A stretch of 64,000 nt of DNA from Agromyces protaetiae (GCF_004135405.1 NZ_CP035491.1:124001-188000); one strand, 5' to 3'. Counted from the stretch's first letter, positions 26,758-45,862 are shown. Numbers and translations are program-made. Notes: generated from the letters alone by a model not told the origin.

Positions 26758-29700
26758 TCACGCATCGGGCGGTACGTCGCCGATCGCCTGCGCGAGTTTG
26801 CGCAGCGTCGCAGGTGTCCGGAAGTAGCTCAGGTGATCGCTCGGGAGGATGTCGGAGACAGGCGGGCGGATCGCCCACGCCGGGAAGCTCTTCGCGCTCA
26901 CGACCGACACCGCGATGTCGTTCGGCTGGCCGAAGAACGGAAGGTCGGTCGCGACCCTCATGAGCTTCGCGACCAGCCGCTTCACCGTACCCGGGTCGGC
27001 CGTTTCGACCAGCGAGCGGTCTCCGACGATGACGTGGTACTGCACTCCGGGGTCCTGGCCGTGCTTCTTCAGCTCCCGATAGAAATCGGAATCCGGCGCG
27101 AGGTCGTCGAGTCCGGCGTCGACCCGCTCCAGAGCGCCCACGAGCCATCCGACAACCGCCACCGGCCACGCCGTGAAGGCGAACGCATTCGCCGCCAGGC
27201 CGAGCCCCGTCGTCGCCCAGTCTTGAACCGTCGGCCACGGCGAGCCGGCGTTCGGGGTGCCGAACGTGACGAGGGTCGACACGTCGACGCTTCGCTCGAC
27301 TTCGATTGCGTACCGCGAGACGAGACCGCCCATCGAGTGCGCAACGATGTCGAGCCGCTTCCCGTGTCCCGTGCCGAGTCCTGCCGCCACGAGTCGCTTC
27401 GCGAGCGCCTTGCCGGTGTCGGCGATCCCGGTTCCGATGCTCTCGTAGTCGAACGTCAGGATGACGTCGAACCCCGCGCCGACCGGAGTCTCTCCCGCGG
27501 CGAACCGCGAACTCCTCGCCATCTCCTTGGTGTCCCCGATGATGCCGTGCACGTAGAGCAGCACCGACCGGGCGGCGGCCACGCGCCGTCGGACCTCATC
27601 GGGATCCCGCTCATACTCGACCTCGCCGTCATCGGCGACCGTCGCGACCTGGAGCAGGGGGTAGTCGTCGCCGATGCCCAGAGTCTCCCGGATGAGTCGG
27701 CGGAACAGGATCCGGATGGATCCGAAGAGGCTGCGAGTGGTCGAGACCGGCTCGGGGAGCCGCTGGATAACGATCTCGGATCCAGCTGCGGTCGCCCGCC
27801 CGAACCCCAGCGGGATGTAGAACTCGCCGTCCCACGCGAACGGAAGCACCCGCTCGTCGTCGCCGAGGCTGCGGTCGAGTTCGAGCACGAGGGGTGATGC
27901 AGGCGTGACCGCGTCGAGCCCGGATGCCCCTCCGCCGAACTCGACGACGACGGAATCGAGCTCGGCTTCGCCGCCGCGCGTCGCGACCAGGCCGAAGGGT
28001 TCGATTCCGTCGATCTGCAGCGCCGCCGGCACGGGGGCCGCCCCCAGGTCACGCGTGGCGTCCGACGCGTGGGTGAGCCGCAACGTCGCCTGCAATCCGG
28101 GGTGCGGTCGCACGCGGACGCCGTCCGCGATCTCAACGGTGCGCACGGGGTCGACTTCAACGCCGTCTCGGGGACGCACCGCGGTCACCTCGACGTCGAT
28201 CGTGAACCAATCCGCGATCTCGGACCCGCCCGCAGGCTCTGCGCGTCGCGTGCCGACCCTCCGCATGAGGCGGTCGAGCGTGGACTTCGGGGACTCGCCG
28301 CCGCCGCGCGTCGCGACTTCGCGCTCGGGGAGTGCGGTCGGGTCGAGGTCGTCCTGCACGACCGTGCGCGGATCGAACTCCGAAGTGCTGACGACGAGCT
28401 TGAGGAGGTCGGTCACCTCGGTCCTGCCTCGTTCGAAGAGCCGCTGCGGCACAGTCGCCTTGAGCTCGATCGCCTTCTCCTCACCGCCCTGGAGTTCGAA
28501 GTAGCCGATCGGGTCATCGCAATAGACGCCGAAGGTGTCCGTCAGGTCGAGCAGCCCGATGAACAGCGACCGCTCGGCGGTATTGGCCACGGTCACCGTG
28601 TACTCGGCCGGGCGGGGACGGCCGTCGTCACCCGCGACGTACTCGAAGCGGTACCGCCCGTCGACCTCGGTCTGCAGCCGGCCGGAGCCGTCTGGGAGCG
28701 GCTTCGACTCGCCTGACACGGTCACGGCGACGACGTCATCCGGTAGTCGCGTGGCCCCGTTCCGCAACGCCGCGACCCGCGACCACCGGGCGAGGTGCTC
28801 GAGCATCCCGATCGTCTCCTCCGGCCCCAGGGCCGATGGGCACAGGTCCCGCTCGCCTACGGACCGCCGCACGCGGTACCGGTCTGGGAGCGCGTCGACT
28901 CGAAGCTCGGCCGCCGAGAAATCCGTCGTCTCAGCGACGAGCAGCGGACCGTCCGTGTCTCGGGCACGGAGCGCGTCCCGAAGCGCGGCGACCCGCGCGA
29001 CATCCCCGTCGATCGCGACGCGGATCGGCGACACCGGACTCGCGATCACGATCGCATGCAGACCGTCCACGTCCTCGAGCGCTGTCCCCGCATCGAGTTC
29101 GATCGTTGAGTCCCCGACCCGGACCTCCGTCACCCGTGCCGTCGCGACGCGTTCTCCACTCACTGCGAGCACGCCGACGACGGTGAACTCGCCCCCGACG
29201 GGAGCGACGATGCCGTGCACCTGCCCTCCGTCGATGACGAGTTTCGCACCGGCCCGCGTCACCACGAAGTGACCGGGCAGGGGCGCGATCGCACCGTCGA
29301 GGAAAGTACGGTCAAGGTCTTCGGCCGCCGACGTCTCGAGCTGGGGGTTCTGCTCGCGTACCGAGGCGCGCACGCCGGCGCTCACGCGTCGGTGGATGTC
29401 TCGATAGCTCGACCCTCCGCCGGAGGTGCTGAGCGCCTGGTGAAGCGCGACTGACATCGCGCCGCGCGCCTTCCCTTCGTGGGTGACCTCCTTCGACGTC
29501 TCGTTCGACCGGCACCCCGAGAGCAGGACGTGGCGCGGCGAGCGGATCGCCCACCCGCTGTCGCCCAGTACCGCCGGCTTCGAGACCGCTGCTCCGCCTT
29601 CGGCGACCCGCGCCGCGCCGGGCAGGAACGCCTCGATGGGCCGCGCCCTGCGATCCAGGGGCGCCCGACGAATCGCCGTACCGTCCTCGAGGGGCCCGCG

Positions 29701-30159
29701 TGTGCCGCTGCCCGAATGGCAGCAATCGAGCACGACGAGCACGTGCGGCGAGCTCGCCTCCGTCTCGCTCAGCAGCACCGCGAGTTCCTTGTCGGCGAGA
29801 TCCCACTTGCCGGGCGACCGACTGTCGAACAGCACGAGCGTCTCGTCGAGGTGGTCGGGCTCGATCGACCAGAATTCCTGGGGAGCCGACTCCTGCGATC
29901 CATGGCCGCTGTAGTAGAAGAGCGCGACATCCCCTTCGCCCGCCTGCCCGAGATGGCTGCGGAACGCGTCGATCACCTCGTCCCGGGTCGCCTGCTCATC
30001 GACGAGACGCAATGGGTGGAAGGTGTCGCCTGCAGACGCGACCCGAGCGCTGAGCAGCGATTCGATCGCGTCGACGTCGTTCTTGCACCCCGCAAGGCGC
30101 GGCACCGGATCCGGGTACTCGTCGATTCCCACCAACAGCGCGAACACCCGTTTGCCCAT
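26758..30159 (-). CDS. metacaspase-like protease fused to alpha/beta lipase-like hydrolase
   Basis: A 1133-residue protein. Residues 1-290 are a clan CD caspase (peptidase C14) domain: VFALLVGIDEYPD, FYYSGHGSQ with catalytic His86, and VVLDCCHSGSG with catalytic Cys147. The middle (about 300-830) is beta-rich, including caspase-associated and regulatory-looking segments without a family I can name. Residues about 870-1133 are a lipase-like hydrolase: YVHGIIGDTKE oxyanion region, AHSMGG nucleophile Ser942, QPND Asp1081 and SDHLSYF His1109. A 26-residue hydrophobic stretch at about 985-1010 could touch membrane. No signal peptide. It is third in a three-gene operon, 30 bases after the CHAT gene; cleavage by a partner or itself may free the lipase. 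Confidence 0.88.
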   Translation of the reverse strand: MGKRVFALLVGIDEYPDPVPRLAGCKNDVDAIESLLSARVASAGDTFHPLRLVDEQATRDEVIDAFRSHLGQAGEGDVALFYYSGHGSQESAPQEFWSIEPDHLDETLVLFDSRSPGKWDLADKELAVLLSETEASSPHVLVVLDCCHSGSGTRGPLEDGTAIRRAPLDRRARPIEAFLPGAARVAEGGAAVSKPAVLGDSGWAIRSPRHVLLSGCRSNETSKEVTHEGKARGAMSVALHQALSTSGGGSSYRDIHRRVSAGVRASVREQNPQLETSAAEDLDRTFLDGAIAPLPGHFVVTRAGAKLVIDGGQVHGIVAPVGGEFTVVGVLAVSGERVATARVTEVRVGDSTIELDAGTALEDVDGLHAIVIASPVSPIRVAIDGDVARVAALRDALRARDTDGPLLVAETTDFSAAELRVDALPDRYRVRRSVGERDLCPSALGPEETIGMLEHLARWSRVAALRNGATRLPDDVVAVTVSGESKPLPDGSGRLQTEVDGRYRFEYVAGDDGRPRPAEYTVTVANTAERSLFIGLLDLTDTFGVYCDDPIGYFELQGGEEKAIELKATVPQRLFERGRTEVTDLLKLVVSTSEFDPRTVVQDDLDPTALPEREVATRGGGESPKSTLDRLMRRVGTRRAEPAGGSEIADWFTIDVEVTAVRPRDGVEVDPVRTVEIADGVRVRPHPGLQATLRLTHASDATRDLGAAPVPAALQIDGIEPFGLVATRGGEAELDSVVVEFGGGASGLDAVTPASPLVLELDRSLGDDERVLPFAWDGEFYIPLGFGRATAAGSEIVIQRLPEPVSTTRSLFGSIRILFRRLIRETLGIGDDYPLLQVATVADDGEVEYERDPDEVRRRVAAARSVLLYVHGIIGDTKEMARSSRFAAGETPVGAGFDVILTFDYESIGTGIADTGKALAKRLVAAGLGTGHGKRLDIVAHSMGGLVSRYAIEVERSVDVSTLVTFGTPNAGSPWPTVQDWATTGLGLAANAFAFTAWPVAVVGWLVGALERVDAGLDDLAPDSDFYRELKKHGQDPGVQYHVIVGDRSLVETADPGTVKRLVAKLMRVATDLPFFGQPNDIAVSVVSAKSFPAWAIRPPVSDILPSDHLSYFRTPATLRKLAQAIGDVPPDA

Positions 30160-30189
30160 CGTGATACCTCCGATTCGGTCGTGCGGATG

Positions 30190-32097
30190 TCAGGTCGTGG
30201 TCGTGATCGACGGACCGATGCCGCCCTTCAACTTGAACGCGGGGTCGCCGTAGAGGGCGTACGACGCCCAGGTGATGCGATCGGATTGGGCCTCTTTCGA
30301 CTTCAGCCGGGCGCTTCGCAACGCCTCGCCGACCCTCCGCCCCTCTCCGATCAGGCTCCGGTAGAACTCGCTCGCGAACATCCGCGCGGTGTCGTCGAAC
30401 ACCGGCCAGAGCGACCCGACGCATGCCCGGGCGCCGCCGTACACGAAGGCCGACGCAAGCCCCTGGGCCAATGCGACGGTGCCGCTCGTCCCCACGTCGC
30501 CTTGCGAGGGCGCCCGACTCGACTCGCACGCGTTGAGGAACACGATCGGGTTGCCCTCGAGGAGGCGTCGCACCCGTTCGGCGTAGAACTTGTCGCCGCC
30601 CGGCAACAGCAGATAGCTCGGATCGAGGTTGTTGCGGTCGTACCCGGCGTGGCCGGCGTAGTGGATGATGTCGTAGCCGCCCGGCATGCCGAACTCGTTG
30701 GTGAGCCGCTCCGCCGTGATCTCCTCGCCACGGACGACCGTGATCTGGGCGATCGATGCGCGCAAGACGGCGAACAGTTGTTCGATCTCGGCGATCTCCT
30801 CCCGCGCCTGCGGCAGCTCATCGTCGGGAGCGGAGTCGATGAGCAGGACTCGCAGCGATGTCGTCGACTCGCGCTGGGTGTCTCTGCTCCGGCGGGGGAA
30901 GGTCTGGCCCGCCGGAAGCCTCGAGAACATCCGATCGAGGCAGAGGTACTCCTCCCCGTCGTGGAGGAGTTCCCAGGGGAGCTCGGGGTTGTTCGACGTG
31001 ATGGTGAGCGGGAACCCGTCGGTCTCCGCGATGAGCCGCTGCATCGCATCGGGGATGAGCAGCGCGTACATGCGCCTGCCGACCAGTTCGAGGCGTCGGT
31101 CGGGCGGCAGCTTCGCGATGTCCTCCAACGGGATGCCGGCGATGTCTTCCGGTCCGTCCACTGCCGCGGCGGGTCCGAGCACGGGCTCCGCCCGACGCGT
31201 CGGCGGGTCGGCCGCGGACCTGATGTTCCGCACGGCACCGGCGGCGATGTCGTCGATCGTCTGACGGAACAGCGCCTGATCGCTCGCGTAGATCTTCACG
31301 TGCTGGTGGAGGTTCGTCTCCTGGACGCGCGCGTAGCGCGGGCGACGCACGAGAACCGCGTACGAGACATCCTTCTCGACCTGCGCTTCCGAAATGAGGA
31401 TCAACTCGACCCGTCGGTCCTGCCGCTCGTCGATCATGGCGGCCTCGTCAGCCCGCCCCTCGATCGCCTTCGTCCGGTCCTCGAACGACTTGGGGTTGTC
31501 GAGCCCGACCCCTTGGAGCAGAGTCGTGAGGCGGCCGAGCGCGACGGCGACGGTGTCCCATCGTCCGGAGAGCACGTCAGCGTCGCTCGCGAGCATCATC
31601 CTGACGCCTTCGGTCGCGATGCGGATCTCCGCCTCGTCGATCTGAAGCCCGAACTCCGTGGCGCGCGCGACCGCGGCCCGGAACCGGTTGAGCGGGAGTC
31701 GACGGGTCGCTCGCTCCTGGTCGAGCTGGGTGATGTAGTCGTTCGCGGCTGCACGTTTCGCCTCGAGGTCGACGAGGGACTGCCTGGCCGCTTCCCACCG
31801 CGGCGCCGCCAGCTCGAGCTCCAACGCGTCGACGAGCTGAGCGCGATCCGCAGACGGGCTCGCGATCTGCTCGACGAGCAGGTCAGCGCGAGCGAGGATC
31901 GCCGTCAGGCTGTCGACGAGACCCTGTTCGGCCCCGACCGAGACCAGGCGGGTCCGCCCCAAGTCCTCGATGACTGCGCGGAGGTTCGCGACGAGCAGGT
32001 GATCCTTGTTCAGGCGATCCGTGGCCCGGGCGATACGCTCGACCGAGACCCGCCTCCGCACGGCGGACGGCGTCCGGGTCCCGACCGACGCACTCAT
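30190..32097 (-). CDS. CHAT domain protease with long helical N-terminus
   Basis: A 635-residue protein overlapping the preceding gene by ATGA. Residues 1-330 are mostly predicted helix, rich in Ala, Glu, Arg and Leu, with coiled-coil-like parts (ARQSLVDLEAKRAAANDYITQL). The C-terminal CHAT (caspase HetF-associated with TPR) domain begins near residue 370 with LPWELLHD, then YDIIHYAGHAGYD (catalytic His483) and NPIVFLNACESSRAPS (catalytic Cys524), LAQGLASAFVYGGARACVGSLWPV, and WASYALYGDPAFKL. Both dyad residues are present, so it should be an active cysteine protease, preferring a basic P1 residue as in separase-like relatives. It is the likely proteolytic switch of the module. Confidence 0.9.
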   Translation of the reverse strand: MSASVGTRTPSAVRRRVSVERIARATDRLNKDHLLVANLRAVIEDLGRTRLVSVGAEQGLVDSLTAILARADLLVEQIASPSADRAQLVDALELELAAPRWEAARQSLVDLEAKRAAANDYITQLDQERATRRLPLNRFRAAVARATEFGLQIDEAEIRIATEGVRMMLASDADVLSGRWDTVAVALGRLTTLLQGVGLDNPKSFEDRTKAIEGRADEAAMIDERQDRRVELILISEAQVEKDVSYAVLVRRPRYARVQETNLHQHVKIYASDQALFRQTIDDIAAGAVRNIRSAADPPTRRAEPVLGPAAAVDGPEDIAGIPLEDIAKLPPDRRLELVGRRMYALLIPDAMQRLIAETDGFPLTITSNNPELPWELLHDGEEYLCLDRMFSRLPAGQTFPRRSRDTQRESTTSLRVLLIDSAPDDELPQAREEIAEIEQLFAVLRASIAQITVVRGEEITAERLTNEFGMPGGYDIIHYAGHAGYDRNNLDPSYLLLPGGDKFYAERVRRLLEGNPIVFLNACESSRAPSQGDVGTSGTVALAQGLASAFVYGGARACVGSLWPVFDDTARMFASEFYRSLIGEGRRVGEALRSARLKSKEAQSDRITWASYALYGDPAFKLKGGIGPSITTTT

Positions 32098-33386
32098 CGT
32101 CTCGTTCCGTTTCCGAGGCGGTCGACCTCGTCGTCGAGGACCGCGATCTGGTCACGGATGAAGCTCGGGAGCGCCTCATCTTCGACTGAACTCCACTGTT
32201 CTTTGAGCGCTTGAAGGTTCGAGACCTTCATGTCGAGGATGATCTGATCGGCGCTGCTCTCGGGCTCGGTGAGCGCGAGCACTCCGCGCTCGACCGCGTC
32301 GGTCGCCGGTGCGGATGCGCTCGGCGACGGCACCACGAGCGGCGAGGGGTCGCCGATGAAGGCGACGGGCAACGCCCACTCGTCGGCGAGCGAGCGCGAG
32401 AAGCCCACCTGCTGGGCGCGCCCCGACGCGACCGCTTGGTCGATGGTCGCTCCCGCGGCCAGCGCCTGGTAGAGGCCGCGGAGGAAGTCCGCGCACCCGC
32501 TGTCGGTGATCTTGCCCCGCATGCCGATGACGTTCGGCATGACCGTTGCGATCCCCGCCGCGACGAGATCGGTGTCGCATCCCGCGAGCACGAGGAGGCG
32601 CGCGCGGACCGGCGACTCCTCGATGGCGTCGCGAAGCTCGGCGGCGGTGATCTCCTCGGGTGCCGTGTTGCCGCGGACCACGAGATGCTGCGTCCCACGA
32701 CGCACCGTGAGGCCGCTCGCGAGGATGTGGACGATCGACGCATCCGGCCGGCTGAGCCGGCCGAGGAGTTGCCGCTTGTCGATGTCGGCGACGACGTCGA
32801 TGTGCGTGGGCGAGAACCGCTCCCGCAGGATGAGCGGATCCTGTTGCTGATCGACTCCGACGTCGGTGGTCAGAGCGAGCGCTCGCAGGTCTGCGGGCGC
32901 GACTCCGGCGGGCGCGATCGTCGCGTCGCCGTACTTGCGGGGCGTCTCGCGCTCTATCGCCCACCCGTCCGCGAGCGCGAACGGCCGCGGAGACGACGGA
33001 GAGTCCCGCATGAGTTCCCACGGCAGCGCCTGGATGTTGGGGTCGGGGCTGCTGATGACGAGGCGCAACCCGCGTCCTCCTCGCGCGAGACTCACCGCTT
33101 GCGCCCACGCACTGCTCAACGGCCCGGCGAAGAGCGCGCCGAAAAGCGTCGAGCCGAGCCGCTCCGAACCGGTATCGCCGCTCGTGTACGCGTTCGCGGT
33201 CTGCGGCGCGTCCTCGATGCTTCCTAGGCGGGTGTCGATCTCGACGGCGGCCGCCAGTGTCACCCCGTCGACGGTGGCGCGTGCTTCGCGTTTCGAATCG
33301 GACATCCGATCGATCTCGACGACGAGTCGGACCCCCTCGGTTTGGGGTGCGAGGTACTCGGAGACGTCGTCGGCAGAGATGATCAT
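32094..33386 (-). CDS. degenerate CHAT domain protein (catalytic His replaced by Ser)
   Basis: ATG 33386 follows GGGGGAG closely, giving 430 residues; the much longer open frame upstream runs antisense over the signal peptidase gene and is rejected. A beta-rich N-terminus (VRLVVEIDRMSDSKREARATVDGVTLAAAVEID) precedes the CHAT core: LRLVISSPDPNIQALPWELMRD (about 107-128), SIVHILASGL, where the H-x-x-x-H-G pattern has Ser224 at the catalytic His, and LLVLAGCDTD with Cys270 kept. The fold continues with FLRGLYQALAAGATIDQAV and LPVAFIGDPSPLVV; a 75-residue tail follows. Probably a non-proteolytic sensor, scaffold or decoy partner for the CHAT protein encoded next, whose start overlaps its stop. 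Confidence 0.82.
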   Translation of the reverse strand: MIISADDVSEYLAPQTEGVRLVVEIDRMSDSKREARATVDGVTLAAAVEIDTRLGSIEDAPQTANAYTSGDTGSERLGSTLFGALFAGPLSSAWAQAVSLARGGRGLRLVISSPDPNIQALPWELMRDSPSSPRPFALADGWAIERETPRKYGDATIAPAGVAPADLRALALTTDVGVDQQQDPLILRERFSPTHIDVVADIDKRQLLGRLSRPDASIVHILASGLTVRRGTQHLVVRGNTAPEEITAAELRDAIEESPVRARLLVLAGCDTDLVAAGIATVMPNVIGMRGKITDSGCADFLRGLYQALAAGATIDQAVASGRAQQVGFSRSLADEWALPVAFIGDPSPLVVPSPSASAPATDAVERGVLALTEPESSADQIILDMKVSNLQALKEQWSSVEDEALPSFIRDQIAVLDDEVDRLGNGTRR

Positions 33387-33472: not shown

Positions 33473-34183
33473 TCAGCGTTCGTCGGCGGGCACGTCCTCG
33501 AACGACTCGGGATAGTTGTCGAGCCACGCCCAGTGCGACGTCGGCCAGCTGACGACGAACGCCCGCCCGACGACGTCCTCGACCGGCACGTATCCCTTCG
33601 AGGGTGTGTCGTCCTGGTAGCGCGAGTCGAGCGAGTGGTACCGATTGTCGCCCATGACCCACAGCGCGTCGTCGGGCACGGTGACGTCGAAGTCGGTGCC
33701 CGATGCCCGCGGATCGTCGGGTTCGTGCACGACGTACGGCTCGTCGACGGGCATGCCGTTGACGCTCAATCGGCCGGATGCGTCGCAGCACACGACATGG
33801 TCGCCCGGAAGCCCGATCACCCGCTTGACGAGATGCTCCCCCGAGTCGGTCGGAATGACGCCGATGAGCCCGAGGAACACGTCGATGACGGCCTCCGCAG
33901 GCGCCTTCTCGACGCGCGGCGGCGGCGGGAGCCATCCGCCCGGATCTCTGAAGACGACCACGTCGCCGCGCTCGAGCGCGACCGTCTCGGGCACGAGCAC
34001 GTTCACGAGGATGCGGTCGTCGACCTCGAGCGTGTGCGACATCGACTGCGACGGGATGAAGAACGAGCGCAAGAAGAAGGTCTTGACGAGGAACGACACC
34101 GCGACCGCGACGAGCGCGATGATCAGGATGTCTCGGAGGAATCGCAGCGCGCCGCGTCGCCCCGAAGCCCCCATCGCCCCCAT
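33473..34183 (-). CDS. lepB: signal peptidase I
   Basis: A 236-residue type I leader peptidase. After a short Arg-rich N-terminus one membrane helix (ILIIALVAVAVSFLVKTFFL) is followed by box B IPSQSMSHTLEVDDRILV with the catalytic Ser, box C RGDVVVFRDPGG, box D KRVIGLPGDHVV with the catalytic Lys, and box E MGDNRYHSLDSR. It cleaves signal peptides at the outer membrane face. It begins leaderless: TAGGGT, six bases, ATG. It lies 86 bases upstream of the CHAT operon in the same direction; shared transcription is possible but unproven. No rplS or rnhB neighbour, so it may be an additional paralogue. Confidence 0.93.
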   Translation of the reverse strand: MGAMGASGRRGALRFLRDILIIALVAVAVSFLVKTFFLRSFFIPSQSMSHTLEVDDRILVNVLVPETVALERGDVVVFRDPGGWLPPPPRVEKAPAEAVIDVFLGLIGVIPTDSGEHLVKRVIGLPGDHVVCCDASGRLSVNGMPVDEPYVVHEPDDPRASGTDFDVTVPDDALWVMGDNRYHSLDSRYQDDTPSKGYVPVEDVVGRAFVVSWPTSHWAWLDNYPESFEDVPADER

Positions 34184-41859: not shown

Positions 41860-43676
<1,817 letters not shown>

Positions 43677-43699: not shown

Positions 43700-45862
43700 C
43701 TACAACGTGCAAGAGACGCAGAGATCCAGCTCCGTGCCTTCGAGCGCCATCTGCCGTAGGCGGATGTAGTAGATCGTCTTGATCCCCTTCTTCCACGCGT
43801 AGATCTGCGCCTTGTTGATGTCGCGCGTCGTCGCGGTGTCTTTGAAGAAGAGCGTGAGCGAGAGGCCCTGGTCGACGTGCTGCGTCGCCGCCGCGTAGGT
43901 GTCGATGACCTTCTCATAGCCGATCTCGTACGCGTCCTGGTAGTACTCGAGGTTGTCGTTCGTCATGAACGCCGCCGGGTAGTACACGCGGCCGAGCTTG
44001 CCTTCCTTGCGGATCTCGATCTTCGACGCGATCGGGTGGATCGAGGCCGTCGAGTTGTTGATGTACGAGATCGAGCCGGTCGGCGGCACCGCCTGCAGGT
44101 TCTGGTTGTAGATGCCGTGCTCCTGCACCGATGCCTTGAGGGCGCGCCAGTCGTCTTGCGTCGGGATGTGCACACCGGATGTCTCGAACAGCTCGGCCAC
44201 TCGGGCCGTCGCCGGCAGCCATTCGCGGTCGGTGTACTTGTCGAAGAACTCGCCGCTCGCGTACTTCGAGTCGGCGAACCCGTCGAAGACCTCGCCGCGC
44301 TCGATCGCGATGCGGTTCGACGCGCGGAGCGCGTGGAAGAGCACCGTGTAGAAGTAGATGTTCGTGAAGTCGACACCCTCTTCGCTGCCGTAGAAGATGC
44401 GCTCGCGGGCGAGGTAGCCGTGCAGGTTCATCTGGCCGAGGCCGATCGCGTGCGACTTGTCGTTGCCGTCTTCGATCGAGCGGACCGACGTGATGTGCGA
44501 CTGGTTCGACACCGACGTGAGGCCGCGGATCGCCGTCTCGACGGTCTTGCCGAAGTCAGGGGCATCCATCGTGAGCGCGATGTTGAGCGAACCGAGGTTG
44601 CAGCTGATGTCCTTGCCGATCGCGGCATAGGACAGGTCTTCGTTGTACGTCGTCGGCGTGTTCACCTGCAGGATCTCGCTGCACAGGTTCGACATGTTGA
44701 TGCGGCCCTTGATCGGGTTCGCTTCGTTGACCGTGTCTTCGAACACGATGTACGGGTAGCCCGACTCGAACTGGATCTCGGCGAGGGTCTGGAAGAACTC
44801 GCGCGCGTTGATCTTCGTCTTCTTGATCCGTGCGTCGTTCACCATCTCGCGGTAGTGCTCGGTGATGGGCACGTCGCCGAACGGCTTGCCGTAGACGCGC
44901 TCGACGTCGTACGGCGAGAAGAGGTACATGTCCTCGTTGTTCTTCGCGAGCTCGAACGTGATGTCGGGCACGACGACGCCGAGGGAGAGCGTCTTGATGC
45001 GGATCTTCTCGTCGGCGTTCTCGCGCTTGGTGTCGAGGAACCGCATGATGTCGGGGTGATGCGCCGACAGGTACACGGCCCCGGCGCCCTGACGCGCACC
45101 GAGCTGGTTGGCGTAGCTGAAGCTGTCTTCGAGGAGCTTCATGACGGGGATGATGCCCGACGACTGGTTCTCGATCTGCTTGATGGGCGCACCCGACTCG
45201 CGGATGTTCGACAGCAGGAGCGCGACGCCGCCGCCGCGCTTGGAGAGCTGCAGCGACGAGTTGATGCCGCGCGAGATCGACTCCATGTTGTCTTCGATGC
45301 GGAGCAGGAAGCACGAGACGAGCTCGCCGCGCTGGGCCTTGCCCGTGTTGAGGAACGTCGGCGTCGCCGGCTGGAACCGACCCCCGATGATCTCCTCGAC
45401 GAGGTCGATCGCGAGCTGCTCGTCGCCCTGCGCGAGCCCGAGCGCGGTCATGACGACACGGTCTTCGAAGCGCTCGAGGTAGCGCTTGCCGTCGAACGTC
45501 TTGAGCGTGTAGCTCGTGTAGTACTTGAACGCGCCGAGGAAGGTCTCGAACCGGAACTTCTTCGAGTACGCGAGGTCGTTGAGCTTCTGGATGAACTCGA
45601 ACGAGTACTGCGCGAGCACCTCGGGCTCGTAGTACTCCTTCTCGACGAGGTAGTCGAGACGCTCCTTGAGCGAGTGGAAGAAGACCGTGTTCTGGTTGAC
45701 GTGCTGGAGGAAGTACTCGCGCGCCGCCTCGCGGTCTTTGTCGAACTGGATGCGCCCGTGCTCGTCGTACAGGTTCAGCATCGCGTTGAGCGAGTGGTAG
45801 TCCATCGTCTGACGGGGAGCCTCGATGAGCGTCACGCCGTCAACTGCTGCGTTGCTTGCCAA
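43700..45862 (-). CDS. nrdE: class Ib ribonucleotide reductase alpha subunit
   Basis: A 720-residue catalytic subunit. Signatures: YELL-like N-terminus [57 protein letters not shown] with an active-site Cys, [30 protein letters not shown] with the radical-site Cys, [10 protein letters not shown], and the C-terminal [10 protein letters not shown], whose Cys pair is reduced by NrdH. It converts NDPs to dNDPs. ATG 45862 lies within the end of nrdI (about 31 bases overlap), consistent with coupled translation. No in-frame interruption is seen, so the neighbouring endonuclease gene has not split it. Confidence 0.97.

Follow-up and report, generated by a model that had tools for sequence, protein, structure and literature searches.

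Conflict systems of the MoxR-vWA/VMAP and GAP1-N1 kinds pair a caspase-superfamily peptidase with an alpha/beta-hydrolase. The caspases of VMAP systems are reported to be always accompanied by a neighboring alpha/beta-hydrolase gene, and a joint action of the two has been proposed (Kaur et al. 2020, PMC7159879). Similar alpha/beta-hydrolases were assigned to membrane lipids in a 2021 paper (PMC8195603). We analyzed a stretch of 64,000 nucleotides from Agromyces protaetiae (hereafter the window) in which the same pairing occurs in the third protein of a three-gene cassette, g1-g2-g3. Here, however, both enzymes are fused in one protein (g3), genes for MoxR, vWA, and GTPase proteins are absent from the cassette, and a pair of CHAT proteins (g1 and g2) fills the place of the partners, whereas CHAT goes unmentioned in the text of PMC7159879. 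Among the flanking genes examined with Pfam there is likewise no MoxR AAA ATPase or vWA gene that would complete the ternary arrangement of VMAP systems.

Steens et al. reportedly described in 2024 a SAVED-CHAT effector of type III CRISPR and CBASS with a caspase-like target. The SAVED-CHAT protein combines a CHAT protease with a proteolysis cascade that provides immunity (PMC11229360), and its activated filament (8tl0) is also the best fold match of the g2 model, which has a mean pLDDT of 57. In contrast to that effector, g2 carries a helical bundle in place of SAVED (neither Pfam nor PADLOC matched a SAVED domain in g2), a pseudo-CHAT protein is added, and a hydrolase joined to a caspase serves as the terminal enzyme. 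The TPR-CHAT protein of Craspase (type III-E) is an externally switched CHAT protease that cuts a partner linked to cell death (PMC9729208), and a CHAT-gasdermin pair is known from fungi (PMC12881547). The cassette resembles both in having a CHAT protease under a presumed external switch and a partner with a presumed link to cell death, but it has no TPRs and no gRAMP, and a metacaspase-hydrolase stands in place of Csx30 or gasdermin. Pfam detected no gasdermin among the cassette proteins and the tested neighbors.

Two further comparisons are useful. Caspase-NACHT/STAND-WD40 proteins are known from cyanobacteria (PMC3501461), and proteins of this type are frequently encoded next to genes of the g3 family, whereas the window cassette has neither an NTPase nor WD40 repeats. 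Pfam found no STAND NTPase in g1, g2, or g3, although homologs elsewhere have one next door. Moreover, cFLIP carries an inactive caspase domain (PMC8195603), and the cassette is like cFLIP and caspase-8 in that dead and live caspase-fold members are encoded together, an analogy that extends to the mechanism only and not to the direction of regulation. Parts of these kinds and the cascade idea have been published before but, as far as we have checked, the combination of pseudo-CHAT, CHAT, and caspase-hydrolase without an NTPase is new. A literature search with thin coverage of subscription journals returned no paper on the trio or on DUF7379 (PF24096), and an NCBIfam search returned no specific family.

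The original prediction had placed three tightly packed genes on one strand of the window, encoding an inactive CHAT protein, an active CHAT protein, and a metacaspase-lipase-like fusion. All three open reading frames are present where predicted, on the minus strand, with the ATGA overlap and a 30-bp gap between g2 and g3 (Table 1). The domains and active-site states agree with Pfam and with our alignments, and each of the residues singled out (H483, C524, H86, C147, and S942) proved correct. The g1 start codon lies at 33386 and is preceded by GGGGGA, and the g3 ATG is preceded by GGAGGT, a strong ribosome-binding site. The two CHAT proteins of the cassette are the only ones found in the 3.68-Mb genome.

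Table 1. Features of the g1-g2-g3 cassette, with positions counted from the first letter of the window.
Feature	Position	Strand	Remarks
g1, pseudo-CHAT protein, 430 aa	32094..33386	(-)	Pfam CHAT 1.8e-13; fold at about residues 76-322
g1 Ser224, occupying the catalytic His position	32715..32717	(-)	Thr in Humibacillus and Planctomycetota
g1 Cys270, retained catalytic-type Cys	32577..32579	(-)	
ATGA overlap, g1 stop and g2 start	32094..32097	(-)	GTGA at the equivalent Humibacillus junction
g2, CHAT protease, 635 aa	30190..32097	(-)	N-terminal helical bundle 19-228; CHAT domain 340-618
g2 catalytic His483	30649..30651	(-)	aligned with active CHATs
g2 catalytic Cys524	30526..30528	(-)	aligned with active CHATs
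g3, fusion of caspase, beta-rich middle, and alpha/beta-hydrolase, 1133 aa	26758..30159	(-)	
g3 metacaspase-like domain, residues 1-290	29290..30159	(-)	dyad H86/C147; S1-type acids D28, D145
g3 H86 codon	29902-29904	(-)	
g3 C147 codon	29719-29721	(-)	
g3 middle region, residues 291-850	27610..29289	(-)	mainly beta
g3 hydrolase domain, residues 851-1133	26758..27609	(-)	triad S942, D1081, H1109

The g1 protein has the CHAT fold and, C-terminally, a helical tail that is conserved (NLxALxEQW...PxF[IV]R), but by its dyad it is no active CHAT protease: Cys270 is retained, and the catalytic His is replaced by Ser224. In the g1 proteins of the three other trios described below, the Cys is also kept and Thr occupies the His position. 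When 64 CHAT domains were compared across all loci, only the four trio g1 proteins lacked the His, which is kept in every other g1-type relative for which the motif was read. The four form one clade (support 100/91) beside a matching clade of trio g2 proteins (100/99). By contrast with g1, the g2 protein is a CHAT protease by both profile (PF12770, 8e-37) and dyad. The model of g2, built from four sequences, is poor overall, and its helical bundle is confident.

A different loss is seen in two same-genus fusions of caspase and CHAT of about 1930 aa (L040, 3945-9728; L047, 6397-12195), where the catalytic Cys of CHAT is replaced by Phe. This replacement is a second and independent inactivation of a CHAT domain, through the Cys instead of the His. 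The L040 fusion gene follows a gene for a MoxR-like ATPase.

For g3, the Pfam profiles Peptidase_C14 (4.2e-23, residues 6-278) and, in the C-terminal part, DUF7379 (2.5e-10) and PGAP1 (5.7e-6) identify the two enzymes. An AlphaFold2 model based on 51 sequences has a mean pLDDT of 80.5 and a pTM of 0.72. In a fold comparison, the segment 1-290 resembles GSU0716 (Z 27.6) and plant metacaspases (Z about 26), and the segment 832-1130 resembles the lipase BlEst2 (Z 20.6). A profile search of the PDB gave the same two assignments, with metacaspases at about 1e-25 and bacterial triacylglycerol lipases at about 1e-3. The N-terminal domain has the fold, the dyad, and the acidic S1 residues of a C14 metacaspase or orthocaspase, and the C-terminal domain has the fold of a serine lipase or alpha/beta-hydrolase, with S942 in an HSMGG elbow, D1081, and H1109. 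H86, C147, D28, D145, and D1081 are invariant in all 51 full-length homologs, of which 49 have S942 and 50 have H1109. In the model, helices at about residues 978-1011 of the hydrolase are strongly hydrophobic and resemble a lipase lid. The term lipase-like, as first applied to this domain, is therefore borne out by profiles, by the BlEst2 match, and by the conserved triad, that is, at the level of fold and triad only. The beta-rich middle region is conserved together with the caspase even in members that have no hydrolase; it was barely probed by the fold search, whose match list was taken up by caspase-domain matches.

It had also been predicted that the three genes form a unit and that their homologs would co-occur in other genomes. 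Both expectations are supported, in that the trio with a His-lost g1 recurs in Humibacillus and in a Planctomycetota MAG, linkage of CHAT, caspase, and hydrolase genes is wider still, and the picture is not one of homologs scattered with no co-occurrence at all. In two genomes of Humibacillus xanthopallidus, the three genes are ordered as in the window, g1 and g2 overlap by GTGA, and the identities to the window proteins are 40% (g1), 50% (g2), and 53% (g3). The Planctomycetota MAG has an overlapping g1-g2 pair divergent from g3, with identities of 28%, 32%, and about 42%. In the g3 tree, the window and Humibacillus proteins group together (99) and the Planctomycetota protein is placed elsewhere; the set has therefore been partly reassorted, and g3 has probably been exchanged at least once. 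Exact trios are rare: when 396 genomes of the order were searched specifically for g1, a true g1 was recovered in the window's own genome only (666 bits; the next hit scored 127).

The g3 protein has a far broader distribution. A search of genome contigs with the g3 family yielded 80 loci, most encoding the full-length protein, and the full-length family occurs in at least eight phyla. The loci come from Actinomycetota, Cyanobacteriota, Chloroflexota, Deinococcota, Planctomycetota, Pseudomonadota, Verrucomicrobiota, KSB1, and Bacteroidota, and plasmid copies are present in Rhizobium, Deinococcus, Nostoc, and Anabaena. An immediate neighbor with a caspase or CHAT domain is found at 39 of 86 g3 loci (a contig end truncates 14 of the loci), and the 47 same-strand downstream neighbors include 24 that match nSTAND1, 24 with a caspase domain, and 16 with WD40, all of these being raw counts without a background rate in a set where cyanobacteria are rich in caspases. 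The caspase partner in the next gene is often a caspase-nSTAND-WD40 protein. The g3 protein belongs to an old full-length family whose neighbors are often other caspase-fold proteases.

CHAT genes appear in this neighborhood in several arrangements. A TPR-CHAT gene adjoins the g3 homolog of Anabaena 90, and a CHAT gene and a TPR-like gene divergently adjoin that of Rhizobium. Within one genus of the same order, four species have an active g1-type CHAT gene divergent from a gene for a caspase-middle protein closely resembling g3. When the phylum was surveyed with PF24096, a CHAT and/or caspase gene lay within 1.5 kb of five of the six full-length hits above 150 bits and of none of the 22 weaker hydrolase hits (Fisher p = 6e-5, with the split set at a large score gap after the data were seen). 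CHAT-hydrolase neighbors occur among the strongest hits in genomes G329, G178, G193, and G428, and also in G057, which belongs to the window's own genus. The G428 locus encodes CHAT, CHAT, and hydrolase without a caspase, which would be the logic of the window minus its caspase. In G401, hydrolase and CHAT are fused in one protein. At L234 (7614-13073), a chain of 1820 aa contains a DUF7379-type hydrolase and a CHAT domain.

From these parts and their association, we infer a cascade, its trigger, and a lipid substrate. Because distant bacteria share the trio and close variants of it occur widely, the cassette looks like a cell-suicide switch. Our preferred reading, to which we give roughly even credence, is that it encodes a proteolysis-gated hydrolase module acting through a cascade from g1 to g2 to g3, most likely in abortive infection or regulated cell death. 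A trigger would be sensed by g1 or by the helical N-terminus of g2. The g1 protein would be unable to cleave but might bind, and could thereby hold g2 inactive or aid its assembly, a regulatory role suggested by the co-inheritance of the two. Once active, g2 would cut g3, or would bind it and activate its metacaspase. Repeated gene linkage and the published CHAT cascade point to such an action of g2 on g3, and the order of g2 before g3 is the least certain step of the mechanism. The metacaspase, predicted to cut after Arg or Lys because of the S1 acids D28 and D145, might cut exposed loops rich in these residues, such as residues 607-620, and so release or unlock the hydrolase, as the fusion of the two suggests. 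Since nearly all flexible or low-confidence loops contain Arg or Lys, we dropped 607-620 as a specific cleavage site and regard it as a candidate only. The hydrolase, with its hydrophobic lid, would then deacylate membrane lipids and bring about a growth stop or lysis. In its most explicit form, the proposal is of an NTPase-free, three-tier death switch that runs from pseudo-CHAT through CHAT and metacaspase to an uncaged, self-fused lipase, a bacterial counterpart of pyroptosis with a lipase as executioner instead of a pore. In that form it is decidedly tentative.

Other readings deserve consideration. Perhaps g3 is a self-contained effector for which g1 and g2 serve as a sensor only, with g2 binding g3, or acting on another target, without cutting g3. 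Proteins of the g3 type that have no CHAT neighbor do exist, often beside caspase-nSTAND-WD40 sensors, so the partner of g3 appears to be exchangeable. However, all trios strictly conserve the g2 dyad, and SAVED-CHAT, the closest published CHAT effector, immunizes through a cascade of proteolysis (PMC11229360). We therefore consider this reading credible if unlikely.

It is also conceivable that the caspase cuts an outside substrate and that the hydrolase is an accessory or allosteric part, hydrolysis not being the main output. The hydrolase triad is broken in three of the 51 homologs and intact in 48, whereas the caspase dyad is broken in none, and six members (L085, L086, L163, L164, L166, and L167) have no hydrolase. 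These counts imply that hydrolysis is not always the output, and the never-broken dyad suggests that the caspase is the indispensable step. Against this reading, no trio, that of the window included, has a broken triad, and the hydrolase domain also stands alone beside CHAT genes, which makes an accessory role distinctly unlikely.

A third reading takes the hydrolase for an esterase or thioesterase whose targets are proteins or small molecules, and the module for a regulator of stress responses rather than a killer. Weak Pfam matches to DUF676 and palmitoyl-protein thioesterase, besides PGAP1, would fit, and a non-lethal, stress-related role has been proposed for an orthocaspase (PMC7889975). 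The nearest solved folds and profiles are nonetheless those of true lipases, the lid region is strongly hydrophobic, and Kaur et al. place similar alpha/beta-hydrolases with membrane-lipid hydrolysis (PMC8195603), so that we regard this reading as quite improbable. Finally, that the three genes are unrelated and adjacent by accident is scarcely believable, because even though the exact trio is rare and the region varies between species of the genus, the trio is found again in two further lineages, where g1 and g2 overlap in the same way (ATGA, GTGA).

If the cascade leading from g1 to g3 is real, a membrane-attacking hydrolase would join the known ends of bacterial caspase-type cascades, and the cassette would provide a bacterial case of a dead protease regulating a live one. 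A likely role would also emerge for the uncharacterized Pfam family DUF7379, which has stand-alone members beside CHAT genes. With the proposed substrate and the enzyme on one chain, what prokaryotic caspases cut becomes a directly testable question.

An association with defence islands, which had been suggested as a check, is not seen around the window cassette, whose flanks encode AcrB, MarR, a second LepB, and LysR (MarR and LysR assigned by eye). These look like ordinary variable genes, and we have dropped defence-island linkage as an argument. Pfam matches for the tested genes on both sides were to a DUF2165 protein, a signal peptidase, AcrB, and an FAD enzyme, and PADLOC gave only family-level matches on the cassette (caspase, 2.4e-34; BovA, 1.3e-6). 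Species of the genus are not alike in this region, and neither a clean insertion boundary nor an empty site was found in related species: genomes G009 and G017 have the same MarR-AcrB pair as the window, but the other side differs. The signal peptidase I gene (lepB, 33473-34183, minus strand), which lies 86 bp before g1, is one of two copies, with the other located at G000:C1:2377709. It was rejected as a part of the cassette, as no lepB was recognized beside the Humibacillus trios, and the DUF2165 gene was set aside because no such gene was recognized in the Humibacillus loci.

Several loci of the g3 family have other neighbors. Genes for muramidase, peptidoglycan-binding, or VanY proteins lie directly upstream of caspase-hydrolase genes at L131 (7704-9947), L117 (6805-9897), and others, and might represent a possible partner in cell-wall lysis. 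In Herpetosiphon (L144, 8313-9896), the caspase-hydrolase gene is immediately preceded by a gene for an apparently Hsp70-like protein, and CHAT-bearing genes lie upstream of that. A Nostoc plasmid (L083, 3491-12664) encodes a protein of 3057 aa that joins a caspase-hydrolase to a second caspase, nSTAND1, and a periplasmic-binding-protein-like domain. On a Deinococcus plasmid (L082, 3590-12537), a C1 peptidase, an I42-type protease inhibitor, another caspase, and a caspase-hydrolase are encoded in a row. Elsewhere in the window, an open reading frame at 42876-43676 (minus strand) with a NUMOD3 motif and, by eye, a GIY-YIG-like N-terminus sits between nrdF-like (41860-42879) and nrdE-like (43700-45862) genes, both also assigned by eye, and is probably a homing endonuclease gene inserted in a ribonucleotide reductase operon.
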